Notes under the pieces: generated by a model
The model's database searches: none
Told to the model about the DNA's origin: nothing
What the model saw: the letters and a program-made list of their open reading frames with translations, nothing else
Source: Vibrio sp. SCSIO 43137
Lineage (GTDB): Bacteria; Pseudomonadota; Gammaproteobacteria; Enterobacterales; Vibrionaceae
DNA length: 64,000 nt
Reading direction: 5' to 3'
NCBI RefSeq assembly: GCF_028201475.1
Contig: NZ_CP116383.1
Span: 806,001-870,000, forward strand
Program-made: the position numbers and the translations under genes
Part shown: piece by piece, positions 29,654-49,246 of the stretch
Position numbering within the stretch: position 1 is the stretch's first letter
How the letters are laid out: each line of letters begins with the position of its first letter

Positions 29654-29674
29654 CACATGCATGAGGTGAGTGCA

Positions 29675-30124: not shown

Positions 30125-30133
30125 GTGCTTCTC

Positions 30134-31788: not shown

Positions 31789-32712
31789 TTAGCCAAATTT
31801 TTTCTTAAATTGGTTGGGACTTAAACCAGCATTTTTCTTAAAAATCCTAGAAAAATATAGTGGATCACTGTATCCAACGAGTTTCGATATGTTTGAAATC
31901 GAATCTCCTGTATTTACTAGCATGTTTTTTGCACAAGATATACGTTGCATGTCCCTCCACTTTAATATACTCATGCCTACTTGTTGCTTAAACAGGCTCA
32001 TTAGTCTTGACTCGGATAGACCCACTTTATTAGAGAGGGTTTCTATCGAATAATCTTCGTTAAGATCTCGTGAAAGTATATCAATTACTAGCAGTACTCT
32101 TTCATCATATCTTTTACCATAGATGCTAGGTTGTAATGTATTGCACTGAAGTATTAAGCTTTCTAAGATCGTATATGCTATTTCTGTACTAAAAGGTAGA
32201 TCGCTTTTTATATTTTTTTCTATCTTGCGAAATTTATTATTAATGGTACTTATATACTGTTGGTTTGATATTCGCGTTTTGTATACTTGTCCGATCATAC
32301 TGTCCCAAGAATGAAGCCACTCTTCCCAGTGGGAACGTGGTCTGAAGTACACCCAACGCCTCTCCCACGTTTGTGCCAATGGGTTTCGATAGTAGTAGTG
32401 TGGAACATTTGGTGGTATCAATAAAATATCATTTTCTTCGACCGTAAAAGTCTGTTCATTGCTAACAAGCAGTCCACTACCTTTTGTAGTTATGTTTAGC
32501 GTGAAACCTTTCATACCATTAGGCCTGTCTACCACAAAGTCTGTCTCGTTATTTATCTCGCTGTATGTACGTCCAGACATCAGGTCATTACCAAATATGT
32601 AACCAGGTTTTGTTGGGTCAGTTTCCACTTTAACTCCTTCTTTTAGGCAGTTTACAGAGTATACACTTATAGCAGTACTTTCTACATTGTCTAAGAAACT
32701 GTAGTGGTTCAA
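31789..32712 (-). CDS. AraC-family regulator, close to AraC itself
   Basis: A 307-residue transcription factor. The N-terminal cupin half strongly follows E. coli AraC: KPGYIFGNDLMSGRTY, DFVVDRPNGMKGFTLNIT, ILLIPPNVPHYYYRNP and WVYFRPRSHWEEWLHSW. The C-terminal half has two helix-turn-helix motifs (SIETLSNKVGLSESRLMSLF and NISKLVGYSDPLYFSRIFKK). The start used is a TTG; there is no good upstream ATG. AraC binds L-arabinose, which is galactose without C6, and this gene is divergent from galactose-type mglBAC, so its ligand may be a galactose-like sugar. No araBAD genes are in the window. Confidence 0.88.
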   Translation of the reverse strand: MNHYSFLDNVESTAISVYSVNCLKEGVKVETDPTKPGYIFGNDLMSGRTYSEINNETDFVVDRPNGMKGFTLNITTKGSGLLVSNEQTFTVEENDILLIPPNVPHYYYRNPLAQTWERRWVYFRPRSHWEEWLHSWDSMIGQVYKTRISNQQYISTINNKFRKIEKNIKSDLPFSTEIAYTILESLILQCNTLQPSIYGKRYDERVLLVIDILSRDLNEDYSIETLSNKVGLSESRLMSLFKQQVGMSILKWRDMQRISCAKNMLVNTGDSISNISKLVGYSDPLYFSRIFKKNAGLSPNQFKKKFG

Positions 32713-32958
32713 CGAAGGGGATCTCTATCAATCGTGTACTTAGTCTATCAATATGTCACTAAGTAAAGAACCAACGATAACCTTTGAACCATTAAATCTT
32801 GCAAAAGAGTATAAGCAAGATTCCCCTCAATACTCAAATTACACAAGCTTTTTTTGGGTGGTTTGTGATGGTAAGTAATTGATATATATTACAAGCCATT
32901 CTTGGTTGGTTTGGTAACTATATGTTCTCTCCCATAATAAAATCGAGCACACTGCAGT

Positions 32959-32974
32959 GTATACGTTTACATGC
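32959..32974. promoter_or_regulatory. LacI/GalR-type operator, site 3
   Basis: TGTATACGTTTACATG, a near-palindrome with central CG, about 300 bases before mglB. Confidence 0.5.
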
Positions 32975-33137
32975 CGACCTACCATTTAGTGCCTCTAAGA
33001 CTTAATGTTAACATAATTAGTTTTAATGATGATCTTACTTGCAGTTTATTTGTTATGTTTTTATTGGCTTCTCTAGGCCGCATTAAACTATAAATAACAG
33101 CCATTTATAGTGTTATTGGTGTCATTATTGGATGTAT

Positions 33138-33160
33138 TTTGCAGTATTATTGTCCATGTA
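33138..33160 (+). promoter_or_regulatory. Shared motif A, site 3
   Basis: TTTGCAGTATTATTGTCCAT followed by GTA. It differs from site 1 at very few positions and lies 116 bases before mglB. Confidence 0.5.
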
Positions 33161-33220
33161 ATGTTCGGTATTATAATCTTGGTCACATTATTTGTGATGA
33201 GTTGAGTGATATATTTCTAT

Positions 33221-33235
33221 GGTAAACGTTTACAC
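33221..33235. promoter_or_regulatory. LacI/GalR-type operator, site 4
   Basis: GGTAAACGTTTACAC contains the perfect palindrome GTAAACGTTTAC, 42 bases before the mglB start, a position suited to direct repression. Confidence 0.65.
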
Positions 33236-33275
33236 AAACTTCAAGCGAACTTAACGTAAAACTAGGAACCTCTGG

Positions 33276-34250
33276 ATGAAAAAGATAAAACTATTATCAA
33301 CCCTTATCGCCGGAATTTGCTTTGGCGGTCACGTTGCGGCAGCGACAACTGTAGGTGTAACAGTCTATAAGTATGACGATAACTTTATGTCTGTGGTTAG
33401 ACAGGCTATAGAAAATGTGGCTGAAGCTGATCCTGAGACAAGAGTGCTAATGAATGACTCTCAGAACAACCAGTCTATTCAGAATGATCAAGTCGACGTA
33501 ATGCTCGCAAGGGGTGTAAAAGCCTTAGCGATAAACCTAGTCGATCCAGCATCAGCACCAACCATTATTAAGAAAGCAAAGATGGATGATGTTCCAGTAG
33601 TGTTCTATAACAAAGAACCTAGCAAAGAGGCTCTAGCAAGTTACGAAAAAGCTTATTTCGTTGGAACTGTTTCTAGGGAGTCTGGAATTATTCAGGGAGA
33701 GTTGATTTCCGAGCAATGGAAAGCCAATCCTGCATGGGACTTAAACGGTGATGGGAAACTTCAGTATGTAATGCTTAAAGGAGAACCCGGACACCCAGAT
33801 GCTGAAGCTCGAACTACATATTCTGTAAAAACTATTAATGAGCAAGGTATTGAAACTGAAGAACTTCACATGGATACAGGCATGTGGGATACGGCTATGG
33901 CAAAGGATAAAGTTGACGCTTGGTTATCAGGACCAAATGGTAGCAAAATTGAAGTTGTGATAGCTAACAATGATGGCATGGCCATGGGAGCTGTAGAAGC
34001 TCTAAAAGGTGCAGGTGTCAAACTTCCTGTCTACGGCGTTGATGCTTTGGATGAGGCGCTAGCTTTAGTAAAGTCTGGGCAAATGGCTGGTACAGTTCTT
34101 AATGATGCACAATCACAAGCTAAAGCAACATTTGAATTAACGCGTAACCTTGCCAATGGTAAGGGGGCTACAGAGGGAACTTCTTGGGAACTTGATAATA
34201 AAGTAGTACGTGTTCCTTATGTAGGTGTAGATAAATCGACACTCGAGTAA
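33276..34250 (+). CDS. mglB: Galactose/methyl-galactoside ABC transporter binding protein
   Basis: A 324-residue periplasmic binding protein, very like E. coli MglB: signal peptide, then [70 protein letters not shown] and [13 protein letters not shown]. The sugar-contact residues around NDSQN, the Asp in GVDALDEAL and the calcium loop (DLNGDGKLQ) are present. It heads mglBAC and could also feed galactose to the Trg-type chemotaxis route. Expression probably depends on the operators and motif upstream. Confidence 0.95.
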
Positions 34251-34271
34251 AGCTGCAATAATAACAAACTA

Positions 34272-34309
34272 TAGTGAGAGGCTCATCTTGCTTTAGAGAC
34301 CTCTCACTA
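34272..34309 (+). promoter_or_regulatory. Intercistronic hairpin between mglB and mglA
   Basis: A perfect 10-bp stem TAGTGAGAGG/CCTCTCACTA with an 18-base loop and no T tract. Such hairpins after binding-protein genes usually protect the 3' end and give the binding protein excess over the permease. Confidence 0.7.
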
Positions 34310-34356
34310 AAAGAGATTATTTCGCATCATATGTAACCTTAAAACGAAGTGATTTT

Positions 34357-35865
34357 ATGGCTGAGCAAGCACATGAGTTTCTGTTAGAAATGACAGAGAT
34401 AAGTAAAGAGTTCCCAGGCGTTAAAGCACTAGATAAAGTTAACTTAAGAGTAAGGCCACACTCCATTCATGCATTAATGGGAGAGAATGGGGCTGGCAAG
34501 TCGACTTTGTTAAAGTGTCTGTTTGGAATTTATGAAAAGAATGAAGGTGATATCGTATTCCTAGGCAAGGATGTAAGCTTTGGGTCATCTAAAGAAGCGT
34601 TAGAGTCTGGTGTTTCGATGGTTCATCAGGAACTTAACCAAGTTCTTCAATGTACCGTGATGGACAATATTTGGCTAGGCCGATATCCCAAAAAAGGGAT
34701 GTTTGTCGATCATGATAAAATGTTCGTAGATACAAAAGCAATTTTCGAAGAACTAGACATTGATATTGACCCTAGGGTCAAAGTGTCAACCCTCTCAGTA
34801 TCTCAAATGCAAATGGTTGAAATCGCAAAAGCTTTTTCTTACGAAGCCAAAATAGTAATTATGGATGAACCAACTTCTTCTTTAACTGAAAAAGAAGTTA
34901 ATCACTTATTTACTATCATCAACAAACTGAAAGATCGAGGTTGTGGTGTAGTATACATATCTCACAAAATGGAAGAAATTTTTGCGATTTGCGATGAGAT
35001 TACCATTCTACGTGATGGTGTATGGGTAGATACTAGGCCATTAGAGGGCCTAGAGATGGATGATATAATTGCCATGATGGTTGGTCGGGAGCTAACACAA
35101 CGCTTTCCGGAAAAAACTAATGCTCCAAAAGAGAAAATTCTAGAAGTTAAAAACTTAACCGCTCTAAACCAACCTTCTATTCAAGATATATCTTTCGAAC
35201 TCAGGGAAGGGGAAATCCTTGGTATAGCAGGATTAGTAGGCTCACGGCGCACAGATATTGTGGAAACGATTTTCGGTATACGTGAAAAAAGCGAAGGGGA
35301 ACTCTTACTTCATGGGAGAACCATGAAAAATAGAGACGCTCATGAAGCTATAGGCAATGGTTTTGCACTGGTTACTGAAGAAAGGCGAGCTACCGGCATA
35401 TATAGTGATTTAGATATTACGTTTAACTCACTAGTAGCCAATGTTGAGGAGTATAAAACTAAATCAGGCTTACTCAGTAGTAAGAAAATGAAAGGGGATA
35501 CTCAGTGGGTTATTGATTCCATGCGAGTCAAAACACCTTCTCACGAAACTTCAATTGGTTCGCTATCAGGTGGAAATCAGCAAAAAGTTATTATTGGTAG
35601 ATGGCTGTTAACACAGCCAGAAATACTAATGTTAGATGAGCCAACTCGAGGAATAGATGTTGGTGCTAAATTTGAAATTTATCAACTGATCTTAGATCTG
35701 GCAAACAAGAATAAAGGTATAATTATTATCTCTTCTGAGATGCCTGAACTTCTTGGTATTACAGATCGTATTCTAGTAATGAGTAATGGTCGCGCAGCGG
35801 GCATTGTTGAAACCAAAAATACTTCTCAGAATGAAATATTAGAGTTGGCCTCTCGCTACCTCTAA
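34357..35865 (+). CDS. mglA: Galactose/methyl-galactoside ABC transporter ATPase
   Basis: A 502-residue duplicated sugar ATPase. The N-terminal half has Walker [13 protein letters not shown], the signature [14 protein letters not shown] and Walker [11 protein letters not shown]. The C-terminal half has the degenerate Walker [10 protein letters not shown], the signature [15 protein letters not shown] and [11 protein letters not shown]. The length matches E. coli MglA (506). It is cytoplasmic and drives MglC; the mglC start follows 10 bases after its stop. Confidence 0.95.
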
Positions 35866-35875
35866 GGAATTAATT

Positions 35876-36883
35876 ATGGATACGTTAAAGAACTTTGCAA
35901 TGAAGTACCTGAAAGAAGGTGCAATTTACGCAGTATTGTTGATTCTGCTAGCAGTTATTATTATTCAAGAGCCTTCTTTTTTAAGCTTAAGAAATTTTAG
36001 TAATATTCTCACACAATCATCTGTGCGTGTAATTATTGCTCTTGGAGTGGCTGGACTAATAGTTACCCAAGGTACAGACTTATCTGCAGGTAGACAGGTA
36101 GGATTAGCGGCAGTTATATCTGCTACTTTATTGCAAGCTATGGATAATGTTAATAAGGTCTTTCCAGACCTTATAGAAATGCCAATAATTGGTGTTGTAA
36201 TTATCGTTTGTGTAGTTGGTGCGCTCATCGGCTTGATGAATGGTATCATTGTAGCTTACTTAAAGGTAACACCATTTATAGCTACTTTGGGCTCAATGAT
36301 AATCGTATATGGCATAAATTCTCTTTATTATGACAGTGTAGGTGCTTCACCAATCGCAGGTTTTGATGAGGGTTTTTCAGAGTTTACGCAAGGGTTCATT
36401 CGACTAGGCGATTTTAGGTTCTCATATATTACTTTTTACGCGATAGTGGCCATTGGCTTTATGTGGGTTCTCTGGAATAAAACAGTGTTTGGTAAAAACA
36501 TTTTTGCTGTAGGTGGCAACCCAGAGGCAGCAAAGGTATCAGGCGTTAACGTCCCTCTTACTCTATTGAAAGTATATGCATTGTCAGGTGTTTTCTACGC
36601 TTTTGGTGGTATGTTAGAAGCAGGCCGTATAGGTAGTGCGACCAACAACCTAGGTTTCCTATATGAACTGGATGCAATCGCCGCTTGTGTAGTTGGTGGT
36701 GTTTCTTTTGCTGGCGGTGTAGGAAGTATTGCTGGTGTTGTGACTGGTGTTTTAATATTTACAGTTATAAACTATGGAATGACATATATAGGCGTAAGCC
36801 CTTACTGGCAATATATTATTAAGGGTTCAATAATTGTATTTGCAGTTGCGATCGACTCTATGAAGCATGCCAACAAAAAATAA
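35876..36883 (+). CDS. mglC: Galactose/methyl-galactoside ABC transporter permease
   Basis: A 335-residue integral membrane protein with about ten helices, matching E. coli MglC in length (336). Family marks include LGVAGLIVTQGTDLSAGRQVGLAAV, LKVTPFIATLGSMIIVYG, GGNPEAAKVSGVNVP and the conserved DAIAACVVGGVSFAGGVG. Last gene of mglBAC. Together with the ATPase and binding protein this is a complete high-affinity galactoside uptake system. Confidence 0.95.
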   Translation: MDTLKNFAMKYLKEGAIYAVLLILLAVIIIQEPSFLSLRNFSNILTQSSVRVIIALGVAGLIVTQGTDLSAGRQVGLAAVISATLLQAMDNVNKVFPDLIEMPIIGVVIIVCVVGALIGLMNGIIVAYLKVTPFIATLGSMIIVYGINSLYYDSVGASPIAGFDEGFSEFTQGFIRLGDFRFSYITFYAIVAIGFMWVLWNKTVFGKNIFAVGGNPEAAKVSGVNVPLTLLKVYALSGVFYAFGGMLEAGRIGSATNNLGFLYELDAIAACVVGGVSFAGGVGSIAGVVTGVLIFTVINYGMTYIGVSPYWQYIIKGSIIVFAVAIDSMKHANKK

Positions 36884-37104
36884 ATAGGGAGATGGGGAGA
36901 TATTATAGTAGGTAAGTTTTATAATGGCCTATTATTTGGCACCACGTTTGCAAGTTGCGGGGGCAGCTTGCTTTTTTTCATATTTAGTTATCCTCGAGTT
37001 GGTGAGTAGTGTTGTATTAAAGTTGCTTAAATAGGACTTTATACAATCAACAGCCTATAATGTTACTAATATGAGCAGGGAATCTACTTACTAAGATTTA
37101 ATGT

Positions 37105-38430
37105 ATGAATACTTCGTCTAACACCACATCCACTAATTGCCATGTAATGGCGAAACCTTCTGGCTCGATTTGTAATTTAGATTGTGAGTATTGTTTTTAC
37201 CTTGAAAAAGAGAAGTTATATCCGGAACGTAATGAAAACTGGAGGATGAGTGATGAAACTATGGAAATGTTCATCCGTCAGCAGATAGAGGCACAAAGTG
37301 GGCATGATGTAGATATTGCATGGCAGGGAGGTGAACCAACTCTTATGGGGGTAGAGTTTTTCGAAAAAGCCGCTGTACTTGCTAAAAAGTACAGTAATGG
37401 TAAGCGGATTCACCATGCATTTCAAACTAACGGCATACTTATTAACGATGAATGGTGTGAATTGTTTAAGCGCCATGATTTTCTCATAGGTATTTCTATT
37501 GACGGGCCCGAGGAATTACATGACAAATATCGCGTTACACGCTCCGGTAAAGTAAGTCACCATAAAGTTATGCGTGGGATAGGGTACCTTAAAAAACATG
37601 GTGTTCCCTTCAATACACTTACGGTGGTCAACAACTTTAATGCCTTTAAGCCGATAGAGGTTTACCGTTTTCTTAAATCTATAGGCTCTTCTTACATGCA
37701 GTTTATTCCTTTAGTGGAGCAGCAAGCAGTAGATATCAATGATGGAGAGCTTACCCTTGTTCCTCCAGAATTTGACAAAGACTCAAAAGTAACTAAGTGG
37801 TCTGTGCCCTCTTGGCAGTATGGTGAATTTCTGAACCAGATTTTCGATGAATGGGTAAGGAAGGATGTAGGTAAGGTTTTTGTTCAAACATTCGATAGCA
37901 CGTTGTCAAGTTGGTGTAATCAACCGGCTGGTATTTGTATTTTTTCTCCAACGTGTGGAAATGCTTTCGCGTTAGAGGCGAACGGTGACCTTTATTGCTG
38001 CGATCATTTTGTTTATCCCGAATTCAAATTAGGGAATATTCACCAACAGAGTGTGAATGAAATGAACAACAGTGACAAGGCTGTGAAATTTGGGAAGGAC
38101 AAGAAGGAACGTTTGACTGCCGACTGCCAGAAATGTAAGTTTCGATTTGCGTGCCATGGAGGGTGTCCGAAACATAGATTCATTGTTTCCGATAAAGGTT
38201 TCCCATTCCAAAATTATCTTTGTAAAGGCTATCTGCATTATTTCGAGCATACTGCCCCCTATATGGCTGCGATGAGAGACTTAGTTAAGTCTGGTCATCA
38301 TGTATCAGAAGTAATACGGATGGTTAAAGCAAGTGACAACAAACAGATTATTGCTAAGGTGGGAAGGAACGTTTTTTGCCCATGTGGGAGTGGAAAGAAA
38401 TATAAACAGTGTTGTGGAAAGAACAAGTGA
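37105..38430 (+). CDS. Anaerobic sulfatase maturase (radical SAM/SPASM) with SEC-C tail
   Basis: A 441-residue enzyme that oxidises the sulfatase Cys or Ser to formylglycine. The radical SAM motif is CNLDCEYCFYLEK (CxxxCxxC), followed by WQGGEPTLMG. Two auxiliary cluster regions in the SPASM part are seen: C-GNAFALEANGDLYCCDHF and C-QKC-KFRFACHGGCPKHRF. The last 20 or so residues (FCPCGSGKKYKQCCG) are a SEC-C zinc motif, which I have seen on some family members. It is the natural activator of the island's Cys-type sulfatase, 9 kb away. Confidence 0.92.
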   Translation: MNTSSNTTSTNCHVMAKPSGSICNLDCEYCFYLEKEKLYPERNENWRMSDETMEMFIRQQIEAQSGHDVDIAWQGGEPTLMGVEFFEKAAVLAKKYSNGKRIHHAFQTNGILINDEWCELFKRHDFLIGISIDGPEELHDKYRVTRSGKVSHHKVMRGIGYLKKHGVPFNTLTVVNNFNAFKPIEVYRFLKSIGSSYMQFIPLVEQQAVDINDGELTLVPPEFDKDSKVTKWSVPSWQYGEFLNQIFDEWVRKDVGKVFVQTFDSTLSSWCNQPAGICIFSPTCGNAFALEANGDLYCCDHFVYPEFKLGNIHQQSVNEMNNSDKAVKFGKDKKERLTADCQKCKFRFACHGGCPKHRFIVSDKGFPFQNYLCKGYLHYFEHTAPYMAAMRDLVKSGHHVSEVIRMVKASDNKQIIAKVGRNVFCPCGSGKKYKQCCGKNK

Positions 38431-38437
38431 AATCTAT

Positions 38438-39067
38438 TCAATTTTTAACAAGATCAGCACGATAATTTTTCAATAACCGAAGATCAACTGGCTTTACTCC
38501 TCTGATATTTGGGTTAAGTAAATTTTTGTATTTCAACTGTTTACAGAGTCTGATTACTGTTTGGGTTTCTGTTCCTGAATACTCTGCTATCTCTCGACTT
38601 GTCCAAGGATAATCTTCAAACCTACCAAACAGTTCAACTATCGAATCAAGTACCCGGATTTTAGCATCAAATGCTGCAATATTAGATAAGCGATTCTCTG
38701 CTTCTCCTAACTCACGGCAAACTGAAGTAACAAGTAGTTGTACTAAATCTGGTGCATGTTGATAGATGGCATTTAGCCCTGAAGCATGGATATGTTGAAA
38801 AGTACTTGGTTGAAGGCTTCTAGTCGTTAAGTGGTAATGCTCATTGCTGAACAAAGAGCGATATCCAAAATATTCCCCAGCACCATAGACACGGATAAGG
38901 TGCTCTTTACCTTTTTCCGTGACCTTATACAAACCAACCATCCCAAGCTCAAGAAAATAGAAACCAGACGCTCGATCATTTGCTTGATAGATAACCTGAT
39001 TTTTTTCTACTGTTTCTTTGCGAATATAAATGTTGTCACCTAATAACTTTGAAAATTCAGAGTTCAT
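38438..39067 (-). CDS. Crp/Fnr-family transcription regulator
   Basis: A 209-residue regulator. It has an N-terminal cyclic-nucleotide-type beta barrel (about residues 15-115, GFYFLELGMVGLYKVTEKGKEHLIRVYGAGEYFGYRSLFSNE), a dimerisation helix and a C-terminal winged helix (TSREIAEYSGTETQTVIRLCKQLK). No N-terminal Cys cluster for an iron-sulfur centre, so it is not FNR-like; the effector is unknown. It converges with the maturase gene (stops 7 bases apart) and is divergent from the TauE-like permease. Confidence 0.88.
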   Translation of the reverse strand: MNSEFSKLLGDNIYIRKETVEKNQVIYQANDRASGFYFLELGMVGLYKVTEKGKEHLIRVYGAGEYFGYRSLFSNEHYHLTTRSLQPSTFQHIHASGLNAIYQHAPDLVQLLVTSVCRELGEAENRLSNIAAFDAKIRVLDSIVELFGRFEDYPWTSREIAEYSGTETQTVIRLCKQLKYKNLLNPNIRGVKPVDLRLLKNYRADLVKN

Positions 39068-39101
39068 ATATCTTTACCGAAAAATTAATAAATATGATTA
39101 C

Positions 39102-39119
39102 TTATGTCGACAGACATAA
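39102..39119. promoter_or_regulatory. Palindrome between the Crp-family and TauE-like genes
   Basis: TTATGTCGACAGACATAA: 7-bp perfect arms with a 4-base centre, 35 bases before the regulator start and 133 before the permease. A likely operator for the adjacent regulator. Confidence 0.5.
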
Positions 39120-39252
39120 ATCTATTTCTAATTATTGAATAGACTATCTATAAAACGCAACAACCTATACTTGTTATTTTTTATGGCTAATATTATAAAG
39201 TTTTTTAATGATAAATTAAAGGTTACTTACTGGAGATGGTGGTTAGTATCTT

Positions 39253-40047
39253 ATGGATATATTATTGACATTATTTAGTTTTGATTGTCTTATTAAAGTT
39301 ATACTGGGCTTTTTTATAGGTTTATGCCTTGGCTTGACTGGTGTGGGCGGTGGAGTGCTAATCATCCCAATACTTCAAGTTGTTTTTGGTATGCCGGTAG
39401 TGATGGCAGTTGGAACGGCTAGCATCATTTCTTCTATAGTCAAAGCAAATGCAGGGTTGTCTCATATAATTGCTGGGAATGTAGAGTGGAGAGCACTTAG
39501 ATGGATGTTATTAGGTGCTGTACCTGCGACATTCATTACTACTGAAGTGATTATAGAGCTGTATAAAAACCCGGTAACTGAACAATTTGTTAGCCAGACA
39601 ATCGAATTAGCAATTATAACTATCATGCTGCTTTCTTTATACTCTATCTATAGAAAATACAAAGTTGCGATTGGAATCTCTTCTGTCCGACCACATTCGA
39701 ATAAGATGGCTTTATCTGCAGGTATTACCTGCGGTACTGTTTTAGGATCAACAGGAATTGGAGGAGGTGTGATGTTACTGCCTGCTTTTAACACACTTCT
39801 TGGAGTAAGCATTAAGAAGTCGGTAGGTTCTTCTTTAGTTATGGCATTAGTTCTTTCCAGCCTAACCGCTTTAATTTATAGCAGAAGTGGGCAAAGTGAT
39901 ATAACTACAGCTTTCTTGATGTCATTAGGCGCATTTATAGGCGTTCCTGTAGCAATGCGAGTAATAAAGAAACTAGATGATAAAAATATATATGCGATTA
40001 CGGTGTTCATAATATCTATCTCTCTTCTTATGATAGTAACAAAATAA
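39253..40047 (+). CDS. TauE/SafE-family permease (sulfite exporter-like)
   Basis: A 264-residue inner-membrane protein with about eight helices in two repeats. Each repeat begins with the family pattern: FFIGLCLGLTGVGGGVLIIP and ITCGTVLGSTGIGGGVMLLP. TauE/SafE members export sulfite, sulfoacetate and other organosulfur anions, though many are uncharacterised. Next to a sulfatase maturase, and in an island with a sulfatase, export of a sulfur oxyanion is plausible but not shown. Confidence 0.85.
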   Translation: MDILLTLFSFDCLIKVILGFFIGLCLGLTGVGGGVLIIPILQVVFGMPVVMAVGTASIISSIVKANAGLSHIIAGNVEWRALRWMLLGAVPATFITTEVIIELYKNPVTEQFVSQTIELAIITIMLLSLYSIYRKYKVAIGISSVRPHSNKMALSAGITCGTVLGSTGIGGGVMLLPAFNTLLGVSIKKSVGSSLVMALVLSSLTALIYSRSGQSDITTAFLMSLGAFIGVPVAMRVIKKLDDKNIYAITVFIISISLLMIVTK

Positions 40048-40518
40048 CTTTTTGATGTGCTCAACGTGGATGTATTTAGCTCTATGAGAATGCAACTATT
40101 CTACTTTTAGGTAGTGGCAGCCTATGGATGTATTGCGCTGACTAATGAAAAATAGGAACCACACAACTAGCTATTTATATAAACACTAATTTTATTGAGA
40201 TTAAGAATTGTACCTCCTTATCAAAAGATTAGCTTAGTTATGCACTAGTACTTTACAGAGCTTTTTTACTTCTTTATGAGCACAAAGAATAAAGTGTTTT
40301 TTCTAATTAACTTATGTTTAATTCATGGAGGTTCCGGAAGAAATCGAAATAAGGGTAATCCCCCCTAAGAAAATAAGTAGATAGTACTCAAAAAGATTAC
40401 ATTAAACTATAGTCTTTAGTTTTACAGTCTACGTGCTTTCACTTAAATACGAATGTGCATGGTTTTATATGAATTTATGGAGCTAATGGCTGAGCTAGTA
40501 TAGCTCCATATACTACTG
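40048..40518. other. 471-bp gap with a possible IS end
   Basis: No gene seen. GGTAATCCCCCC at about 40,354-40,365 equals the left end of the third IS3-family element (24,380-24,391, reverse strand), so this may be a solo IS end left by an old insertion or deletion. Confidence 0.35.
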
Positions 40519-40842
40519 CTAGAGACTAAACTTTGTTAGGGAGTATATTTCATATCCTATTGAGGTAGCCATGATTATGATAGATAATACTTTTTTGATT
40601 AGAATGTCTTTATTGTTCACAATACTCTTATTTAAGAAAAACTGATTGAATCTTTTCTGGGTATAATAAGACAGAAATAGTGCATAGCTGACTAAAGTCA
40701 TACCAATAAGCCCAACAAATACGCTTTGACTTTGCTTATATAGCTTTAAAGCTAATATTCCACTACCAAGTAGTACGAGGTATGTCCTTAACCACGATAG
40801 TGATGTTCTTTCTACTTGTAACCCAGGCTCTTTATTAATCAT
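40519..40842 (-). CDS. DUF202 family membrane protein (short)
   Basis: A 107-residue protein with three membrane helices. The start GLQVERTSLSWLRTYLVLLGSGILALKL is the DUF202 pattern (ERTxLxWxRT). Its start overlaps the end of the next upstream DUF202 gene by 4 bases, so the two are translationally coupled, as is common for YidG/YidH-like pairs. Function unknown. Confidence 0.82.
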   Translation of the reverse strand: MINKEPGLQVERTSLSWLRTYLVLLGSGILALKLYKQSQSVFVGLIGMTLVSYALFLSYYTQKRFNQFFLNKSIVNNKDILIKKVLSIIIMATSIGYEIYSLTKFSL

Positions 40843-41198
40843 AGAAAGATAGTCAGAATTATGGTAACAGTAAGAACAATCACTATGGCACTTATTATTT
40901 TAAGAAAGTCTGTATAAGGTAATTCATTATTGTGCCTCATTGCTTGTTCATTTGTAGCCCAACGCCTATAGGCAAACAAAGCGAGTATTCCAGAGAATGA
41001 GCAGAGAGAAGTTGACAATACTTTTCGTATCAACGGATCAGCGAGATCAGGAGTTAGTTGATCTATAGCAATTGCTCCTGCCAATAGAGCTATTGCTGTT
41101 CTAATCCAAGCTAGATAAGTTCGCTCGTTTGCAAGAGAAAACCGGTAGTCTGGAGCTACGCCATGGCTTCGCCAGTTTTTTCTTAAACCACTGTTCAT
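40839..41198 (-). CDS. DUF202 family membrane protein (YidH-like)
   Basis: A 119-residue protein with three helices. The N-terminal part DYRFSLANERTYLAWIRTAIALLAGAIAID is typical of YidH/DUF202, with the ANERTxLAWxRT core. First gene of a two-gene unit with the shorter DUF202 gene. Function unknown. Confidence 0.85.
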   Translation of the reverse strand: MNSGLRKNWRSHGVAPDYRFSLANERTYLAWIRTAIALLAGAIAIDQLTPDLADPLIRKVLSTSLCSFSGILALFAYRRWATNEQAMRHNNELPYTDFLKIISAIVIVLTVTIILTIFL

Positions 41199-41464
41199 AT
41201 TTTAATCCACTAATATCTGAGTGACGTTATTTGATAGAGAATAATATAATATATGTATTCCTTGGTAGAATAAAGCGGTATGAAAAAGTAGCACATAAAG
41301 TGACTTGGATAGGTTATTTTTTACTGTCTCTAATAAAGCCTAAGTGTTACTTAAGTTGCTTTGAAAAATGATAACTTTTCAGTGAGTTGGTGTGGTTGCT
41401 TTCTGGTATTGTACTTAGTAATTAACTTATTCCTTGTTTACCTATTTTGAGTAAAAAAACGTGT

Positions 41465-41552
41465 TATAATTGCCTCTAAGTTGAAAGATTAGTGTTGTTT
41501 CTACTTAAGGTATTAATTTTTATTGAAAAGCTTGCCTTGATGTTGAGCTTTT
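41465..41552 (+). other. Promoter-like and terminator-like pair; possible short transcript
   Basis: In the gene-free gap 41,199-41,565 a TATAAT box at 41,465-41,470 is followed 60 bases later by an AAGCT/AGCTT stem and a T run. This could express a small RNA of about 75 nt, or be the end of an older gene. No good -35 box was found. Confidence 0.25.
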
Positions 41553-41638
41553 TTATCTATGGTAGTGTAACCCTCCCCAAAATACTGGCCGCTAGCAATT
41601 AGAGCTTTTCCGTTTACACTGAAAGAAACGGAGAACGC

Positions 41639-41908
41639 ATGATGAAAAGATCGCGCTACACTGAGACACAAATCGTCAAGATATTGAAGGAAGTGGAAGC
41701 TGGCCGAAAGGTCAACGAAGTTTGTCGTGAATACGGTATTTCTGATGCCACTTACTATAACTGGAAATCCAAGTACGGCGGTATGGAAGCCTCTGATATC
41801 AAACGCCTGAAAGAGCTTGAAGATGAAAACAGAAGGCTTAAACAGATGTTTGCCGACCTTAGTCTGGAGCACCGTATCGTCAAAGATATTTTGGAAAAAA
41901 AGCTATAA
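41639..41908 (+). CDS. IS3-family OrfA, copy 1
   Basis: An 89-residue helix-turn-helix protein ([35 protein letters not shown]) with a leucine-zipper end ([18 protein letters not shown]). Its 3' end has an A7G run at 41,895-41,902 where -1 slippage would join it to orfB to make the OrfAB transposase. Confidence 0.92.
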
Positions 41909-41970
41909 AGCCAGCGGTCAAACGCGAACTGGTCGAGTATGTTCGCAAGCAGTTTCAGGTCAGTTTAAAA

Positions 41971-42753
41971 ATGGCCTGCCGCGCAGTTGGCATCAGTGAT
42001 TCCGTGTATCGATACAAGCCTGACCCACACAGAGATGACGAAGTCATAGCGAAGCTTCAGGAAGCCGTAGAACGTTATCCTGCGTATGGCTTCGGCAAGT
42101 TGTTTAAAGTTCTCAGACGATGGGGGTATCCATGGAATCACAAGCGAGTTTACCGCATTTACTGCTCACTCAAGCTGAACATGAGACGTAAAGGAAAAAA
42201 GCGGCTACCTAAACGAGAACCGGCGCCATTGGTGTGTCCGGAGTGGATAAACAGTTGCTGGTCTATCGACTTCATGAGTGACGCTTTGGCCTGTGGCAGA
42301 CGATTTCGCACCTTTAATGTTGTGGATGACTTTAATCGTGAAGTACTCGCCATCGAAGTGGATTTAAACCTGCCAGCTCCTAGGGTTGTACGTGTGCTTG
42401 AGCGCATCATCGCTTGGCGGGGCGTGCCTGCAAAACTGAGAATGGACAATGGGCCAGAATTTATCTCAACCACGCTAGCTGGCTGGGCTGATGAACACGA
42501 TATCGAGCTTGAGTTTATACGGCCTGGAAAGCCCACTGAAAACTCCTATATCGAACGTTTTAACCGCACTTATCGAACAGAGATACTGAATATGTACCTG
42601 TTCAAAACGCTCAGCGAAGTTCGGGAGCTGACAGAAAACTGGATGAGAGAATACAACGAAGAACGCCCCCATGACTCACTAAATGATCTGACACCATGGG
42701 AGTATTTAGCAAGACACGAAAGCAGGAAAAACTCTAACGTGCCGTGCCATTAA
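41971..42753 (+). CDS. IS3-family OrfB transposase, copy 1
   Basis: A 260-codon frame from the first ATG; the true frame continues upstream to the slippage site at about 41,900 ([18 protein letters not shown]...). DDE residues: [19 protein letters not shown] and the Glu in [12 protein letters not shown]. Intact, so the element is probably active. Confidence 0.92.
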
Positions 42754-42769
42754 AACAGGGAAGGTTACA

Positions 42770-42965
42770 ATAGGAAATGCCTCGGTTGCAGATGCTTTAC
42801 TGGATAGGTTAATCCACAACAGCCACCGCATAGAACTAGGAGGGGAATCAATGAGAAAACTAGCGCAATCCGGACAGGTAGGGTAAAAATAGGGCTAGAG
42901 AAAAGCTAGGGATAAGTGGTGTCCGGTTAAAACGGAGCCGGTGTCCGGAATTGCCGGAATACGCA
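42770..42965 (+). pseudogene. 3' remnant of an IS21-family element (istB end)
   Basis: Directly after IS3 copy 1 the frame [20 protein letters not shown] followed by [10 protein letters not shown] is the C-terminus of an IstB-type ATPase, ending with TAA at 42,884-42,886. A terminal-repeat-like GTGTCCGGAATTGCCGGAAT follows at 42,941-42,960. The rest of the element is missing. Confidence 0.7.
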
Positions 42966-43034
42966 TTTTGTGCTCAAGAAACTACTAACCATACATTTAA
43001 ACTATCGGTTAGTAGTTTTAATTTGAGAAATAAT

Positions 43035-43505
43035 CTATGAGTTAATATTGTTTAGATAGTCTAGAACGACTTGGTGGTGGTCTTTAGTCTTAAACTTGTC
43101 AAATATATGTTGAAGGTGACCTGACTCATCAATTAGAAAAGTTGTTCTAACTACGCCCATATTTTCGCGACCCATGAACTTTTTCAGTTGCCATACGCCA
43201 TACTTTTCGCAAACTTCATGCTTTTCGTCAGCTAATAAAGTGAAGTTCAACGATTGCTTATTGGTGAAGTTTTCTAATTTTTTTGAAGTATCTGGGCTGA
43301 TACCTAAAGTCACGACATTATGAGCATCTAAGTCTAGCTTTATATCTCTTAAACCTTGTGCTTGCAATGTACAACCTGGTGTTGAAGCCCTTGGGTAGAA
43401 GTAGAGTAGAATTTTTTTTCCTTGTAACTTAGAGAGAGTAACTGGTGCACCATCTTGGTCGTTGAGGGTGAAATCCGGTACTATTTTTCCGATTTCGATT
43501 GACAT
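43035..43505 (-). CDS. bcp: Bcp-type peroxiredoxin carried by the island (replacement copy)
   Basis: A 156-residue thiol peroxidase, the same length as the reconstituted native Bcp. The peroxidatic Cys45 lies in RASTPGCTLQAQGLRD; no Cys is at position 50, where E. coli Bcp has its resolving Cys. It is related to but clearly different from the native gene: e.g. its end reads FLIDESGHLQHIFDKFK, versus FLIDENGVIEHVFNKFK. I chose the second ATG (43,505) because AAAGGAA is correctly spaced from it. It sits downstream of the recombination genes on the same strand. As the island broke the chromosomal bcp, this gene probably restores the activity. Confidence 0.93.
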   Translation of the reverse strand: MSIEIGKIVPDFTLNDQDGAPVTLSKLQGKKILLYFYPRASTPGCTLQAQGLRDIKLDLDAHNVVTLGISPDTSKKLENFTNKQSLNFTLLADEKHEVCEKYGVWQLKKFMGRENMGVVRTTFLIDESGHLQHIFDKFKTKDHHQVVLDYLNNINS

Positions 43506-43597
43506 CGGCATTTCCTTTTTTTCATTTTTGACTTAACTGAAGTGGTCAACATTGACTGTAGCTTCATTTTATGTGGCAAACTCCTTTTTAGGGAGCT

Positions 43598-44083
43598 TTA
43601 TTTAAATTTACCGCGAACCACATTGTCAGGTCTAGTAGTTATAATGGAGTCCATAGCTTTTTCTCGTTCAGACTCTGGAATCATTTCCATTAACTCTTGA
43701 ACTATTTTTATATGGTTAGCTGCTTGCACTGCAAGTGCCTCCTCATGTTTTTTTTAGCGATCTAAGTACTCTTTTTTCTTTCGAATGAGACTTGCTTTTT
43801 CATTTTTAAGGTAAGCGTTTTCTTCTTCAAGTAGGTGGACTGTTGAGGTAGCTGAGTCACTATTATTAACACGTAGCTCTAATGACTTTTTATTTATAAG
43901 CTCTACAATGTCTGGGTGGTTTCTTAGTACTCCGACAGACAGCCCTGCTTCTTTTTCAACATTCGATTTATTAATTTTTAGCTTTCCATTTTGTACTTTT
44001 ATTTTTAGATCACGATTATTAGGTTTACTAGCAACTAATCGTTTTAACGCGGCGAGCAATGCTTTTCGAGTTGTAGTTTTCAT
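43598..44083 (-). pseudogene. Small recombination accessory gene (TnpC/SRAP-like) with in-frame stop
   Basis: A 109-codon frame (43,754-44,083) ends at a TAA just before an A8 run. Reading through in the same frame continues with KKHEEALAVQAANHIKIVQE and ends at 43,598, giving about 160 residues. One base change in a Gln or Lys codon would explain the stop. The protein is basic at the start, has a HTH-like KSNVEKEAGLSVGVLRNHPD and then a coiled coil (LLEEENAYLKNEKASL), as in TnpC of Tn554 and the small accessory protein of strand-biased circularizing elements. ATG overlaps the TGA of the preceding recombinase gene (ATGA). Confidence 0.7.
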
Positions 44084-44868
44084 GTTGTTATTCCAATGTG
44101 TGGAATGAGTAAGCTTTGCACTTCTTTGGGGAACTTTACTGGTTCAAATTTGATGCCCAAGTCATTCATAATTCGTTCTGCTGCAGTTATTGTGATATAT
44201 GATTCCGATGCTGTTTGTGGAGTCAGTTCGTTATGTTCGATATCATAATACATATTAATTTCTGCCTCTTTTCGCTTGGCTTCAGCAAATACTGCATCGA
44301 CTATGTAATCATTCTTACAGTCGACACATTCAATTAGGTTCACCTGGGTACGTAAGCTGCATGCCGTTGAGGTACAATAACCCCCCGGAGCAACAGCATG
44401 TATATGTCTTTTACCAGCAGCAATTAGCTGCTTCCAGTAATCTAAAGTGAGCATGTCGTTATTCACTTTGTCTGAGAATAATATGTTGTCACTTAGTGTA
44501 AGTTGGCGCTTTGCAAACTCTTTCCCTTTCCCTCCTGCTACTCGCTCTTTATTTGCAAGTTTTTCATAAATCCTTAGAAAAATCTGTGCTTTTTGATTAG
44601 TTCTTTCTTTGTCTAATGAGTGACAAAGGTTTTGCCTTTTCTGCCTTAATTTCTGGAACTTACTGGCATTCTTTCCGTAATGTCGCGTCATGGCAATAGA
44701 TACATGACTGAACTGTTGTTTTAGCTGCGGGAATGAGAGTAGCTCGTAACCAATAAGATAATATGCAAATGAACGGCGAAGTTGATGCCCTGAGAAACTA
44801 AAGGTTTCTCCTACTTCAAATGATTCGGCGTTTTTCAAGATAGTTGTCACTATTTGCTTAGTTTTCAA
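44080..44868 (-). pseudogene. Second tyrosine recombinase (TnpB/IntB-like), 3' part only
   Basis: 262 codons remain. They contain the last catalytic boxes: SGHQLRRSFAYYLIG (HxxR) and FSHVSIAMTRHYGK (His and the nucleophile Tyr), so this is the C-terminal half of a tyrosine recombinase. The Cys-rich stretch GGYCTSTACSLRTQVNLIEC then VDC resembles TnpB-type recombinases. The N-terminal part with the first catalytic Arg is missing; IS-derived sequence abuts the 5' end near 44,865. The TTG start is only the first codon after that junction. Confidence 0.78.
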
Positions 44869-45029
44869 GCAACTTCTTTTTCTGGGTTCAGATGAACTTC
44901 TCCGATCGGTTCACAGTTCCTGATATTCCGTGACCAGCGTTCTGGCTTTTGCCTTCGGTGTTCCATCAACACTCTTTCACGATGCTTCAAGATTTCCATA
45001 TCTTTACCGTTGTGACGCTCCGATGGGGT
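44865..45029 (-). pseudogene. OrfB transposase of the split IS, 3' end
   Basis: Continues the broken orfB: PSERHNGKDMEILKHRERVL, then ERWSRNIRN, ending NPEKEVA and a TGA at 44,865-44,867. This is the usual C-terminus of such transposases. Confidence 0.8.
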
Positions 45030-45045
45030 TGTAACCTTCCCTGTT

Positions 45046-45828
45046 TTAATGGCACGGCACGTTAGAGTTTTTCCTGCTTTCGTGTCTTGCTAAATACTCC
45101 CATGGTGTCAGATCATTTAGTGAGTCATGGGGGCGTTCTTCGTTGTATTCTCTCATCCAGTTTTCTGTCAGCTCCCGAACTTCGCTGAGCGTTTTGAACA
45201 GGTACATATTCAGTATCTCTGTTCGATAAGTGCGGTTAAAACGTTCGATATAGGAGTTTTCAGTGGGCTTTCCAGGCCGTATAAACTCAAGCTCGATATC
45301 GTGTTCATCAGCCCAGCCAGCTAGCGTGGTTGAGATAAATTCTGGCCCATTGTCCATTCTCAGTTTTGCAGGCACGCCCCGCCAAGCGATGATGCGCTCA
45401 AGCACACGTACAACCCTAGGAGCTGGCAGGTTTAAATCCACTTCGATGGCGAGTACTTCACGATTAAAGTCATCCACAACATTAAAGGTGCGAAATCGTC
45501 TGCCACAGGCCAAAGCGTCACTCATGAAGTCGATAGACCAGCAACTGTTTATCCACTCCGGACACACCAATGGCGCCGGTTCTCGTTTAGGTAGCCGCTT
45601 TTTTCCTTTACGTCTCATGTTCAGCTTGAGTGAGCAGTAAATGCGGTAAACTCGCTTGTGATTCCATGGATACCCCCATCGTCTGAGAACTTTAAACAAC
45701 TTGCCGAAGCCATACGCAGGATAACGTTCTACGGCTTCCTGAAGCTTCGCTATGACTTCGTCATCTCTGTGTGGGTCAGGCTTGTATCGATACACGGAAT
45801 CACTGATGCCAACTGCGCGGCAGGCCAT
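45046..45828 (-). CDS. IS3-family OrfB transposase, copy 2
   Basis: Identical in translation to the OrfB of copy 1, with the same intact DDE residues. Confidence 0.92.
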
Positions 45829-45890
45829 TTTTAAACTGACCTGAAACTGCTTGCGAACATACTCGACCAGTTCGCGTTTGACCGCTGGCT

Positions 45891-46160
45891 TTATAGCTTT
45901 TTTTCCAAAATATCTTTGACGATACGGTGCTCCAGACTAAGGTCGGCAAACATCTGTTTAAGCCTTCTGTTTTCATCTTCAAGCTCTTTCAGGCGTTTGA
46001 TATCAGAGGCTTCCATACCGCCGTACTTGGATTTCCAGTTATAGTAAGTGGCATCAGAAATACCGTATTCACGACAAACTTCGTTGACCTTTCGGCCAGC
46101 TTCCACTTCCTTCAATATCTTGACGATTTGTGTCTCTGTGTAGCGCGATCTTTTCATCAT
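45891..46160 (-). CDS. IS3-family OrfA, copy 2
   Basis: Identical in translation to copy 1; one silent base differs (ACT/ACA, Thr in RYTET). Confidence 0.92.
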
Positions 46161-46233
46161 GCGTTCTCCGTTTCTTTCAGTGTAAACGGAAAAGCTCTAA
46201 TTGCTAGCGGCCAGTATTTTGGGGAGGGTTACA

Positions 46234-47105
46234 CTATCACATAGTTTAATCGGCTGTGCTTATGTTCCGTGTTGTACCAGTTAGCGAAGGTCTCTACCCA
46301 CACACGGCTTGCTTCAAGACTATTAAAACCGCCAGACGGCCAGCTTGGCACATACTTAAGCGTACGGAACAGCGATTCCACATAAGGATTATCATCACTG
46401 ACTCTTGGACGGCTATAAGAAGGTGTGATCCCCAGCTCTTCCATTTTCGCTTTTAACGTAAACGACTTCATCGGTCCACCGTTATCTGAGTGCAGAACCA
46501 GAGGCTGGTTGAAGCACTGTTCACGCATCAGCGTACGTTGTAATAACTGCGAAGCCAGCTCTCCGCATTCACGTTCATGCACCTCGTAACCTACGATTTT
46601 TCTGCTGTAGATGTCTTCTATCACATACAGATAATAATATTGCCCGCGGACACCTGACGGGAGATAGGTAATATCCCAAGTAAAAACCTGATTAGGAGCT
46701 GTTGCGGTGTAGCTCGTTGGCCTAGATACCTTTTGTCGACTACGCTGGCGTCCTCTGCGGTTAAGTTGTCCTGCTGCTTTCAGTACGCGATAGAAGCTCG
46801 ACTCTGAAGCTATATAGTCACCTTTGTCCAGTAACGTTGGTACAATCTGAGTCGGTGGCAGACTTGCGTACTCTGCGTTGTTGCTCACATCGATGATGGT
46901 TTGTCGCTCTAGCTCTGTGAGCTTGTTAACTGGCACTGGTCGCGGAGCTATCGGCCGTTGATCTTCCTGAACCTCTCCATCTTGATACCAGCGGCGGTAA
47001 GTTCGGAGATCTATCTCAACTTCGTGACATGCGTTTTCCAACCTACAGCCGCTTTGGCGAGCCTCGTGTATAAGTGTGATCAGGCTTTGCCTTTCATAGG
47101 TCGAG
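46234..47105 (-). pseudogene. OrfB transposase of the split IS, 5' part
   Basis: DDE integrase core: FTWDITYLPSG, LVLHSDNGGPM and SDDNPYVESLFR. The frame enters from orfA by -1 slippage (LTSTYERQSLITLIHEARQ before the first ATG). It breaks off after HSRLNYV at IS3 copy 2. Confidence 0.85.
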
Positions 47106-47106
47106 G

Positions 47107-47607
47107 TTAATCGTCCTCTGGTTCTTCCCCGTAAAAGGCTCTCAGCTTTTTTCTCAGCACCAGCAAGGCGGCAGTTTCAGCTAAGGCTTTTTCTTTATGG
47201 CGGAGTTCTTTCTTTAACTCTTTGATTTCTCTTTTATCTTCTTTGGCTTGTTTCTTCGCTTGGGCTTCTCGTTCCTTACTGGACATGAAGCCTTGCATAC
47301 ACTCACCGCGCCACTCTTTAATCTGCTCGGGATAAAGTCCTTTCTCACGACAGTACTGGCTTAGTTCGTTCTCTGTCATGGAATAAGTTTCTGCCACAAC
47401 GGCCAATTTAGTTTGAGCTGACCACTGCTCGGAAGAAGTATTACTGTTTGGCACAACGGTTCCTGATTCTCTGAGTTGTTTTCGCCAATTGTACAGGGTT
47501 GCTTCATGAATTCCTTCTTCGAGCGCCACTTCTGCCACTGACCGGGAGTACGGAGGTAACAACTTCTTCAGTACTGCTTCTCTTCTTTCTTGGGAATAAC
47601 GAGCCAT
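47107..47607 (-). CDS. OrfA of the split IS
   Basis: A 166-residue protein with two helix-turn-helix parts (VAEVALEEGIHEATLYNWRK; MTENELSQYCREKGLYPEQI) and a long C-terminal coiled coil rich in K and E. Intact, but its partner orfB is broken. Confidence 0.85.
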   Translation of the reverse strand: MARYSQERREAVLKKLLPPYSRSVAEVALEEGIHEATLYNWRKQLRESGTVVPNSNTSSEQWSAQTKLAVVAETYSMTENELSQYCREKGLYPEQIKEWRGECMQGFMSSKEREAQAKKQAKEDKREIKELKKELRHKEKALAETAALLVLRKKLRAFYGEEPEDD

Positions 47608-47610
47608 TCT

Positions 47611-48717
47611 TTACTCTGTCCAAAGCCAATTTGTTGCATATGTTGAGCGACAATCATGAATACGGTAGTACCATGAAGGAGTAACCTTTTGTATAGCTTT
47701 TCGGATTGCAGCAAAATGCTTCTCCAAGGTGTTTTCACTGTATGGCTTACCTCTGTTTGATAGAAATAAATATTCATGGCTTGCTTTGCAAGAGTTATTA
47801 GTTTCCCTTTTTTCTGCGTTAGCTTTTCTAACTTTACTGTACTTATATTGTTCAAGCTCTTCATATAAATACAAAGGAACCTCAATTGTGCGAGGTTTAG
47901 ATCCTTTCGTATGAACCAGGTAAATGGGAACAACGTCTAGCTCACTTAAATCTACCTCTCCAACTTGTTTAACAGGAAAGTGCGTAACCTCTTGGATTCT
48001 AATACCTGTCTCTATAGAAAGTTTGAACATTAAGGAAAGTGGTCGTGGAAGTTGCTCAATGTGCTGTAGATATATCGAGAGGTCTTCCGTAGTCATAGGC
48101 TTCAGCTTTTTATAGGTGGGAGTTGAGTCAGACCGTGGAAACATTCCCATTACATTCGATGTTGTGTAGTGTCGTTTTTGTTTTGATATTAGATGCGTAA
48201 GCATGTCATGCTTATCTGCATCTTGATAAGGGTCTAATACTTTGGCATCGGTGTAGTGGGTAACGACATTGTTTCTATCGTTTTTCAGGTAGCAATTCTC
48301 TTGCATCCACTTATAAAAACCTAGAACTGCACCTATATATGTTTTCACCGTGCTTGACGACCATGCTTCCTCTCCGTTGCTCTGGCTGTGTCGGCAGTTC
48401 TGCTTCAAAAACTCAGCAAAACGCCACACTGCGCTTTCTTCTTCATATTTCGATAGGGTTTTATAAGTAAGGAACTCGGCAGGAATCTCATTTCCGTCTT
48501 TGTCTTGTTGGTGAGTGTGAGTAGAGCTTAAGAAGCGGGCGAAGAGCAATAAAGCTTTAGCTATACTGCTTGTATCCTTCACTTTTCCTTCTCCTCGTAA
48601 TTTAGATACAAGATATAGAGAGTGCGGATAAACAATAGAGCCATTGGGGTCTACTATTATCTTTGTTCTTTTTAAGCTGCTTGAAGTGTTTGAAGACTCA
48701 AGGCGTGGGACCAGCAT
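47611..48717 (-). pseudogene. First tyrosine recombinase (TnpA/IntA-like), 3' truncated
   Basis: 368 codons of a phage-type integrase. The N-terminal SAM-like domain (about residues 60-150) and catalytic boxes are visible: the first Arg in ETGIRIQEVTHF, a Lys in HTKGSKPRTIEVP, and HDCRS (HxxR) near the end. The frame stops at NWLWTE where IS sequence begins, so the final His/Trp and the nucleophile Tyr are lost. The frame is open for about 45 codons upstream of the ATG at 48,717, but lacks another start. It points inward from the right end of the island. Confidence 0.83.
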
Positions 48718-48892
48718 TGTTTCACCGGAGTCTTTGTCAAGTTGTGTTGAGAACTTTAGTTTAGCTAGAGTGTCTACTTCAATTTCAAGCAGACGAAAGT
48801 CATCATAAATTAGAGCTGATAAAGCGCATTTCCTTGATACTGATAGTTTAGTTAAAAACTAGTCCATCATAGAAATTAATCAAGGTTTTTTG

Positions 48893-48911
48893 TCATAAAA
48901 ATTAGCCAAGG
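48893..48911 (-). repeat. Right terminal inverted repeat
   Basis: Reads CCTTGGCTAATTTTTATGA on the minus strand. It joins bcp at 48,912 without extra bases, unlike the left end. The 175-base gap between it and the recombinase has no gene. Confidence 0.8.
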
Positions 48912-49246
48912 ATAAATTTCTTTTCACCCCAGACACCAAATTGATCCGCCGCACTGTGGTCTTCGTCAGATAAAAGGGTAAAGTTGAGTTCATCTCTTTC
49001 AATAAACTTACCCAGACGCTTAACCGGATCGATACTGGCGCCCAGAACCACAACATTGTGTGCATCAAGTTCAGCTTTAATGTCTCTTAGTCCCTGAGCC
49101 TGAACGGTGCAGCCGGGAGTCATGGCTTTGGGATAGAAATAGAAAAGGACTTTTTTGCCTTTAAAGTCTGAAATCTTTACCGGATTACCGTCCTGATCCA
49201 AAAGTGAAACGTCAGGTGCCGGAGTTCCGGCCGTTAGTGTATTCAT
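48912..49246 (-). pseudogene. bcp: bcp, 5' fragment (first 111 codons)
   Basis: The native thioredoxin-dependent thiol peroxidase gene up to GVWGEKKF. It keeps the peroxidatic Cys46 (AMTPGCTVQAQGLRD) but lacks the last strand and helix of the fold. In the present sequence the frame runs into the element and ends at 48,902 with three foreign residues, giving 114 residues. Its promoter and RBS (AAGGAAAAAC) are intact, so a truncated, probably unstable product may be made. It follows gcvR by 13 bases. Confidence 0.93.

Follow-up and report, generated by a model that had tools for sequence, protein, structure and literature searches.

A decayed SE-6283-type element splits bcp in a Vibrio genome and carries a diverged bcp that probably replaces it

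Introduction

Why does an element that breaks the bcp gene of its host bring a second, diverged bcp gene along? The question is raised by a stretch of 64,000 nucleotides of Vibrio sp. SCSIO 43137 (contig NZ_CP116383.1, positions 806,001 to 870,000; the window in the following), in which an intact bcp lies inside an insertion that splits the resident one. The idea that an element in bcp brings a diverged bcp is already in print, and the window is a further case, which by itself extends the published pattern. In passages of PMC5991714 (2018) and PMC9345347 (2022), bcp is named as the target of SE-6283, which is said to bring a homologue of this gene and possibly to make up for the loss thereby. 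According to the 2018 text, Tn6283 inserts into E. coli bcp and its carried Bcp homologue shows 54.8% protein identity; a partial compensation by the cargo Bcp was suggested there, with recA-mobile elements drawn as comparison.

Results

An intact bcp gene inside the insertion that splits the resident one

The locus is made up of the following features.
12740..12868, minus strand: 3' part of the resident bcp (own-genome search)
12869..48913, minus strand: insertion of 36,045 bp in bcp, a decayed SE-6283-like element with cargo, insertion sequences and a terminal footprint
43035..43505, minus strand: element-borne bcp, 156 aa (ORF list, Pfam, own-genome search, tree, pN versus pS)
48914..49246, minus strand: 5' part of the resident bcp, 111 codons, with an ORF that runs on into the element to 48902

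The resident bcp was cut after codon 111, between the KKF and the MG codons. The native sequence ...AAATTT ended at 48914 and was picked up as ATGGG from 12868 (halves at G000:C1:854911-855234 and G000:C1:818740-818886 in genome coordinates). Directly ahead of it lies an ORF (49260-49802) which we take to be gcvR-like. Imperfect inverted repeats (CCTTGG.../...CCAAGG) were present at the element ends as in relatives, and attL and attR of the window resembled those of the other elements (16 attL and 6 attR compared, window included), which are the end repeats and the fixed target of an SE. Approximately 8 variable bases separated the right-end motif from the native ATGGG in the 6 attR. As the element sits in bcp and carries bcp, it was assigned to the SE-6283-like subgroup.

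The longest minus-strand ORF for the element bcp (43035-43511) encodes 158 aa, while a second ATG at 43505, with a ribosome site (GGAA) that was judged better by eye, yields 156 aa. The first-pass annotation had described an intact 156-residue Bcp-type peroxiredoxin with its catalytic Cys, encoded on the strand of the broken gene and too diverged to be a recent copy of it. All of this held: the ORF, the Pfam domain AhpC-TSA (E 4.8e-37) and an undamaged TPGCT motif agreed, element bcp and both resident pieces were found on the minus strand, and the protein was 57% identical to the resident 5' piece. Domain and motif Cys, which presumably is the peroxidatic one, place the protein among the Bcp/PrxQ-type enzymes, and its relatives of solved structure bear the name bacterioferritin comigratory protein. 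A search of the whole genome with Bcp yielded 4 matches, namely the full gene (G000:C1:849038-849511), the two resident halves and one distant match of 30% identity; the element copy was the sole full-length Bcp match. A promoter scan behind srap found 3 promoter-like sites, none of them on the minus strand, with 3.4 expected by shuffling.

Decay and cargo of the window element

Remnants of the SE core genes were sought with the proteins of L011 (Vibrio renipiscarius), a closely related element that is intact.
41560..42770, plus strand: insertion-sequence copy, which together with its inverted partner encloses the intB remnant, srap and bcp, the two arms being 2258 nt apart
43601..44083, minus strand: srap with an in-frame stop, open frame ending at 43754
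44092..44823, minus strand: intB remnant, residues 487-730 of 733 only
45029..46239, minus strand: insertion-sequence copy, the 100% complementary inverted partner of 41560-42770
46229..47607, minus strand: insertion sequence with HTH_Tnp_1 and rve ORFs, abutting the cut end of intA
47614..48813, minus strand: intA remnant (Pfam Phage_integrase), aligning to residues 8-408 of 463, with the C-terminus lost at the insertion sequence

No match to tfp was found in the window with the L011 protein. The four-gene core intA-tfp-intB-srap, complete in close relatives, is thus not intact here, and judged by its genes the window element is a decayed derivative of an SE-6283-like element and not a working SE. 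With its recombination genes lost or damaged, it would therefore be unable to move on its own. The bcp gene had been placed just behind the recombination genes. It does lie behind the intB and srap remnants, but these genes are all damaged and tfp went unmatched. Together with the identical inverted insertion sequences on either side, the intB remnant, srap and bcp (41560-46239) have the form of a composite-transposon-like unit, which could in principle move bcp by itself.

The cargo between 13586 and 40047 resembles a catabolic island.
18607-20421: sodium:solute symporter
27110-28465: sulfatase
28700-31651: parts of a tripartite tricarboxylate transporter
31789-32712: AraC regulator
33276-34250: sugar-type periplasmic binding protein
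34357-36883: two ABC-type ORFs (by eye) alongside the binding protein
37105-38430: radical-SAM/SPASM protein, presumably of the sulfatase-maturase kind

The ORF at 28700-29653 matched TctC in Pfam. It encodes by eye nearly the same protein as the ORF at 16815-17801 in the opposite orientation, a duplication within the island.

SE-6283-type elements pair a broken bcp with a carried Bcp

Because a Bcp-keyed scan (80 loci) is biased, the survey was keyed on Tfp (alignment A1, 13 rows). Within the family to which the window belongs, 31 of 329 genomes gave matches, as did 8 of 394 in an order sample overlapping that family, 11 of 146 in the family of G615 and 8 of 345 in the family of the Alteromonas genome G803. 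The regions L115-L161 and L170-L175 were read; two matches of the Alteromonas family were left out, G1004, which lies at a contig start, and G858, which agrees in position and score with G572 (read as L161). Two copies of the SE core with equal match scores were seen on one contig of G182 (L145, L146).

Among the regions read, 29 SE-6283-type cores were found (19, 8 and 2 in three batches of loci), 27 of them with Bcp directly behind srap. The two cores lacking it were L133, where the contig stops within intB, and L130, which sits in a YgjP-like gene. The left flank was visible for 22 of the 27, and all 22 showed a resident bcp 5' piece just before intA; the loci L116, L125, L126, L129 and L171 begin in or near the element, with the left flank out of view. 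The match of the 5' piece to full-length Bcp stopped at residues 105-114 in 21 of 22 cases. For the exception, L127, the alignment runs to 140, yet the same contig (L066) has the break at the common site. At L129 (same contig as L084) the frame of the element Bcp is interrupted. The pairing was thus borne out in the Tfp-keyed survey: wherever an SE-6283-type element was seen to interrupt bcp and both of its sides were visible, Bcp was carried (22 of 22). Bcp-breaking relatives without Bcp, which the first-pass annotation had named as evidence against its proposal, were not found in the loci read. Neither a Bcp match nor a bcp piece was found in any of 24 distant SE loci.

Elements with another target, and a flank control

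In the sister SE L130 (genome G063) the interrupted target is a YgjP-like gene; an intact YgjP-like copy lies within the element on the opposite strand, 59 bp past the matched end of srap. In a whole-genome search, C3:47708-48124 and 87569-87673 were recovered as the two native pieces and 54663-55199 as the intact copy, with a fourth, weak match elsewhere; Bcp was not seen in the region read around L130. The distant SE L160, whose host genome belongs to another family, lies behind a YgjP-like ORF cut in a conserved motif and carries a 72% identical YgjP-like copy 4.8 kb behind srap.

For a flank test across loci, 48 of 61 fetched loci showed enough of both flanks (13 dropped), and an ORF beside the left end with a homologue within 6 kb behind the operon was scored as positive. 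The test was positive for 29 of 48 loci (23 bcp, 4 thyA, 2 YgjP-like), where the bcp loci are related and do not amount to 29 independent events. Cross-group control pairs, each made up of different loci, were positive in 4 of 1690 cases, with the two YgjP-like loci as one group and L165 counted among the bcp loci, bcp being the gene it breaks; before this regrouping the value was 29 of 1738. The notion that all elements carry a replacement was rejected, as 19 of the 48 loci show none. L165 has its Bcp at the far (right) end, and the other 18 are distant SEs with no match within 6 kb, some with fragmentary cores and uncertain right ends. The genes beside some distant SEs we take to be radA-like and trmA-like. 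At L173 (2799-3299) an AAA-type ATPase ORF, only 166 aa long, adjoins a distant SE, and no replacement copy was found within 6 kb; this locus is a possible exception to the target-plus-replacement rule.

Broken bcp and thyA genes and their carried counterparts in a second recombinase family

The loci L042 and L047-L049 have three integrase-type genes plus a small fourth gene, carry Bcp, and break bcp approximately 9 codons further on. L047 shows the ginABCD layout, with Phage_integrase matches in three genes and a fourth gene of 155 aa. A search with the large integrase (alignment A2, 4 rows) gave matches in 9 of 345 genomes of the Alteromonas family, and in all 9 the broken gene, bcp in 5 and thyA in 4, is accompanied by an intact one. 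A wider search with six large-integrase rows (A3) gave 0 of 369 class-wide genomes, a set that contains no positive control.

The gene bcp is broken in G803, G1116, G932, G1109 and G1028, all five with an intact Bcp. It lies directly behind ginD in G803 and G1116, 3.7 kb behind ginD in G932, and adjoins the native bcp 3' half in G1028 and G1109. For G1109 the native 3' half and Bcp are on another contig, and its Bcp is placed inside the element by deduction. A broken thyA and an intact ThyA of 274-277 aa were found in G828, G1122, G872 and G817. Native thyA halves were present on both sides in G1122, G872 and G817, while for G828 the 5' half only was seen. The start of the element thyA overlaps the last gin gene (ginD) by 1-4 bp.

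A cell without ThyA or ThyX needs external thymidine. The element ThyA was the sole full-length ThyA match in each of the 4 thyA genomes, and ThyX was found in none of the 4 by a search that was positive in 6 of 14 control genomes. On these grounds, the element ThyA is probably the working enzyme in these genomes. It is only 26-31% identical to the broken thyA product at 3 of the 4 loci. At L166 (2184-2834) and L168 (2105-2734, both turned coordinates) the resident ThyA, only 26-32% identical to that of the element, is of a deeply diverged type, and in some Alteromonas-family hosts such a resident ThyA is cut near a QRSCDVPL stretch. The bcp pairs at a second site and the thyA pairs, both in a second recombinase family, appear to go beyond the published pattern.

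What the element-borne bcp is

The anatomy of the element, the split genes, the pairing of target and carried gene, the purifying selection on the element bcp and the mosaic bcp genes are best explained, with a probability of roughly 0.83, by a decayed SE-6283-type element that split the resident bcp and whose diverged bcp now replaces that of the host. We infer that the element copy replaces the bcp function and is kept for that reason. Four other explanations were weighed.

In the first, elements would have taken up element-type Bcp from Alteromonadales and Vibrionales, where it was a resident gene, and the genes at the native locus would be donors. A tree of 89 Bcp rows united 23 copies from elements and 10 with no SE genes nearby in a single clade (support 100/99). 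Finding the gene in relatives outside such elements at this place had been named beforehand as a result against the replacement proposal, and taken literally this is what the 10 rows represent. Nine of them lie directly behind a gcvR-like ORF, and for L006 the upstream side is out of view. In five Vibrio residents the gene is of element type already from its start codon, and residents such as those of Colwellia fall in or close to the element clade, as expected of donors. Against this origin stand the broken native pieces, which fall outside the element clade, those of Vibrio in another well-supported group, and two clear mosaic genes with native ends, L017 (in the clade) and L061 (outside). 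L061 (Vibrio sp. CK2-1) resembles the V. litoralis native gene up to approximately codon 99 (87-97% per 30-nt window), is then 100% identical to the V. litoralis element copy up to approximately codon 139 (next window 93%) and returns to native flank, so that the insertion site lies within the element tract. In L017 (Photobacterium sp. Ph5) native first codons are joined to an element-type body, and L038 resembles it by eye. The two mosaics suggest that at least some of the element-free copies arose by recombination with element copies. We regard the donor explanation as unlikely; it bears on the origin of the gene and is compatible with a replacement in the window.

The same mosaics would be expected if the homologous gene served as a homology arm by which host recombination moves the element in and out, with the protein function secondary. 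However, computable dN/dS values of 0.017-0.114 for pairs of element-type Bcp indicate strong purifying selection on the protein, and three of the four element thyA genes are, at the low identity given above, poor substrates for homologous recombination, yet intact and overlapping the operon. This makes the homology arm an improbable explanation.

A third explanation, that Bcp is ordinary cargo, a useful extra peroxiredoxin associated with its target by common descent of one element lineage, has to its credit that the core genes unite the Bcp-carrying SE-6283-type elements in a single lineage and that, according to a legend in PMC9345347, SE-6283 is also found on plasmid pSEA1, outside bcp. 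It is quite improbable in view of the sister SE, which has switched to a YgjP-like gene together with its target, of the distant SE that pairs YgjP-like genes too, of the other recombinase family with its bcp and thyA pairs, and of the distant SE loci free of Bcp and bcp pieces. Tight co-descent of Bcp and integrase had been considered separately and was dropped, since across 15 elements Bcp distances correlated only weakly with those of IntB (r 0.32), and no better than with those of the native gene (r 0.36).

That the window bcp is a functionless relic like the rest of the element, which its branch, at 0.28 the longest among element copies, and the broken neighbouring genes might indicate, is highly improbable given the full ORF, the intact catalytic motif and a pN of 0.115-0.142 versus a pS of 0.72-0.90 against 17 relatives, values which are saturated in 16 of 17 comparisons and mostly measure the history before decay. 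From the long branch, a faster evolution of the window bcp after decay is possible.

The two bcp types differ in the flanks of the target site (GVWG.. versus GVWQL.. and KEYDG versus RENMG). A synonymously recoded target site, by which the element bcp would evade its own integrase, was rejected, as the core DNA around KKF-MG is much alike in both types. With a pattern open to both types, all 17 of 17 broken copies were G-type, the attL pattern itself being limited to G-type. An immunity of the element's own bcp type to insertion is only suggested by this, the sampling of resident Q-type genes being biased.

Discussion

In the replacement scenario, tyrosine recombinases would insert the element at a fixed bcp site and thereby destroy the resident gene, while the diverged bcp brought along just behind the recombination operon would now serve as the only Bcp of the host. 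The replacement would remove or lower the cost of insertion, and the host would be tied to the element, because loss of the element bcp would leave no bcp. Later insertion sequences and mutations would then have damaged intA, intB and srap and removed tfp, with bcp staying intact.

The selective need for a replacement may be mild for bcp and should be strong for thyA. On an insertion without cost, as claimed initially, the published E. coli data are mixed: in the reported test (PMC5991714), bcp::Tn6283 had a wild type-like growth rate and a lower maximum OD, and delta-bcp grew faster. With bcp dispensable in E. coli and this result for the deletion, the pressure for rescue may be weak.

From gene content, the same target-plus-replacement design appears to recur with the YgjP-like and thyA pairs and in the second recombinase family. 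Somewhat better than even, in our estimation, are the odds for a more general reading, in which target and replacement gene form one swappable module. A switch of target would then bring a switch of replacement (bcp, YgjP-like, thyA), even for essential genes; thyA would be a fifth cistron overlapping the recombination operon; and the replacement, being unlike the resident gene near the target site, may be spared from attack. Recombination may in turn free hosts of the element, a process that would leave a tract of the element copy across the insertion site, and the whole would be a natural counterpart of break-and-rescue gene drives.

If the wider result holds, it would explain how site-specific elements afford to land in conserved, even essential, genes. 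The target of unstudied elements would be predictable from an odd housekeeping gene behind the integrase operon. It is also a warning that core genes used as markers (bcp, thyA, recA) are exchangeable by mobile elements, and it offers a natural system for the study of replacement-based persistence.

Among known systems, the second family (L047, L162-L169) has the gene layout of the GInts described in PMC5385486, three genes of integrase type plus a small fourth one; neither bcp nor peroxiredoxin, thyA or thymidylate is mentioned in the main text of that paper. An inserted thymidylate synthase gene also stands in for a broken one in C. difficile RT027 (PMC6700662), where, however, the enzyme is a non-homologous one, ThyA for ThyX, and the passage on it does not speak of an integrase-operon element. 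No case of a thyA-breaking element that carries thyA was found in the open-access papers searched. The recA-mobile element of Vibrio cholerae (RME, PMC4405046) is described as entering a housekeeping gene with a complete diverged copy near one end as well, but it differs in the gene, in the integrase set and, going by a section title of that paper, in its excision as a closed circle. Closest to the window are SE-6283 and Tn6283 which, as far as the passages of PMC5991714, PMC9345347 and PMC10214605 go, are alike in the bcp target, the Bcp homologue, the relatives of intA-tfp-intB-srap and the imperfect terminal inverted repeats; the copy in the window differs from them in its 36 kb, its lost recombination genes and a bcp bracketed by insertion sequences.
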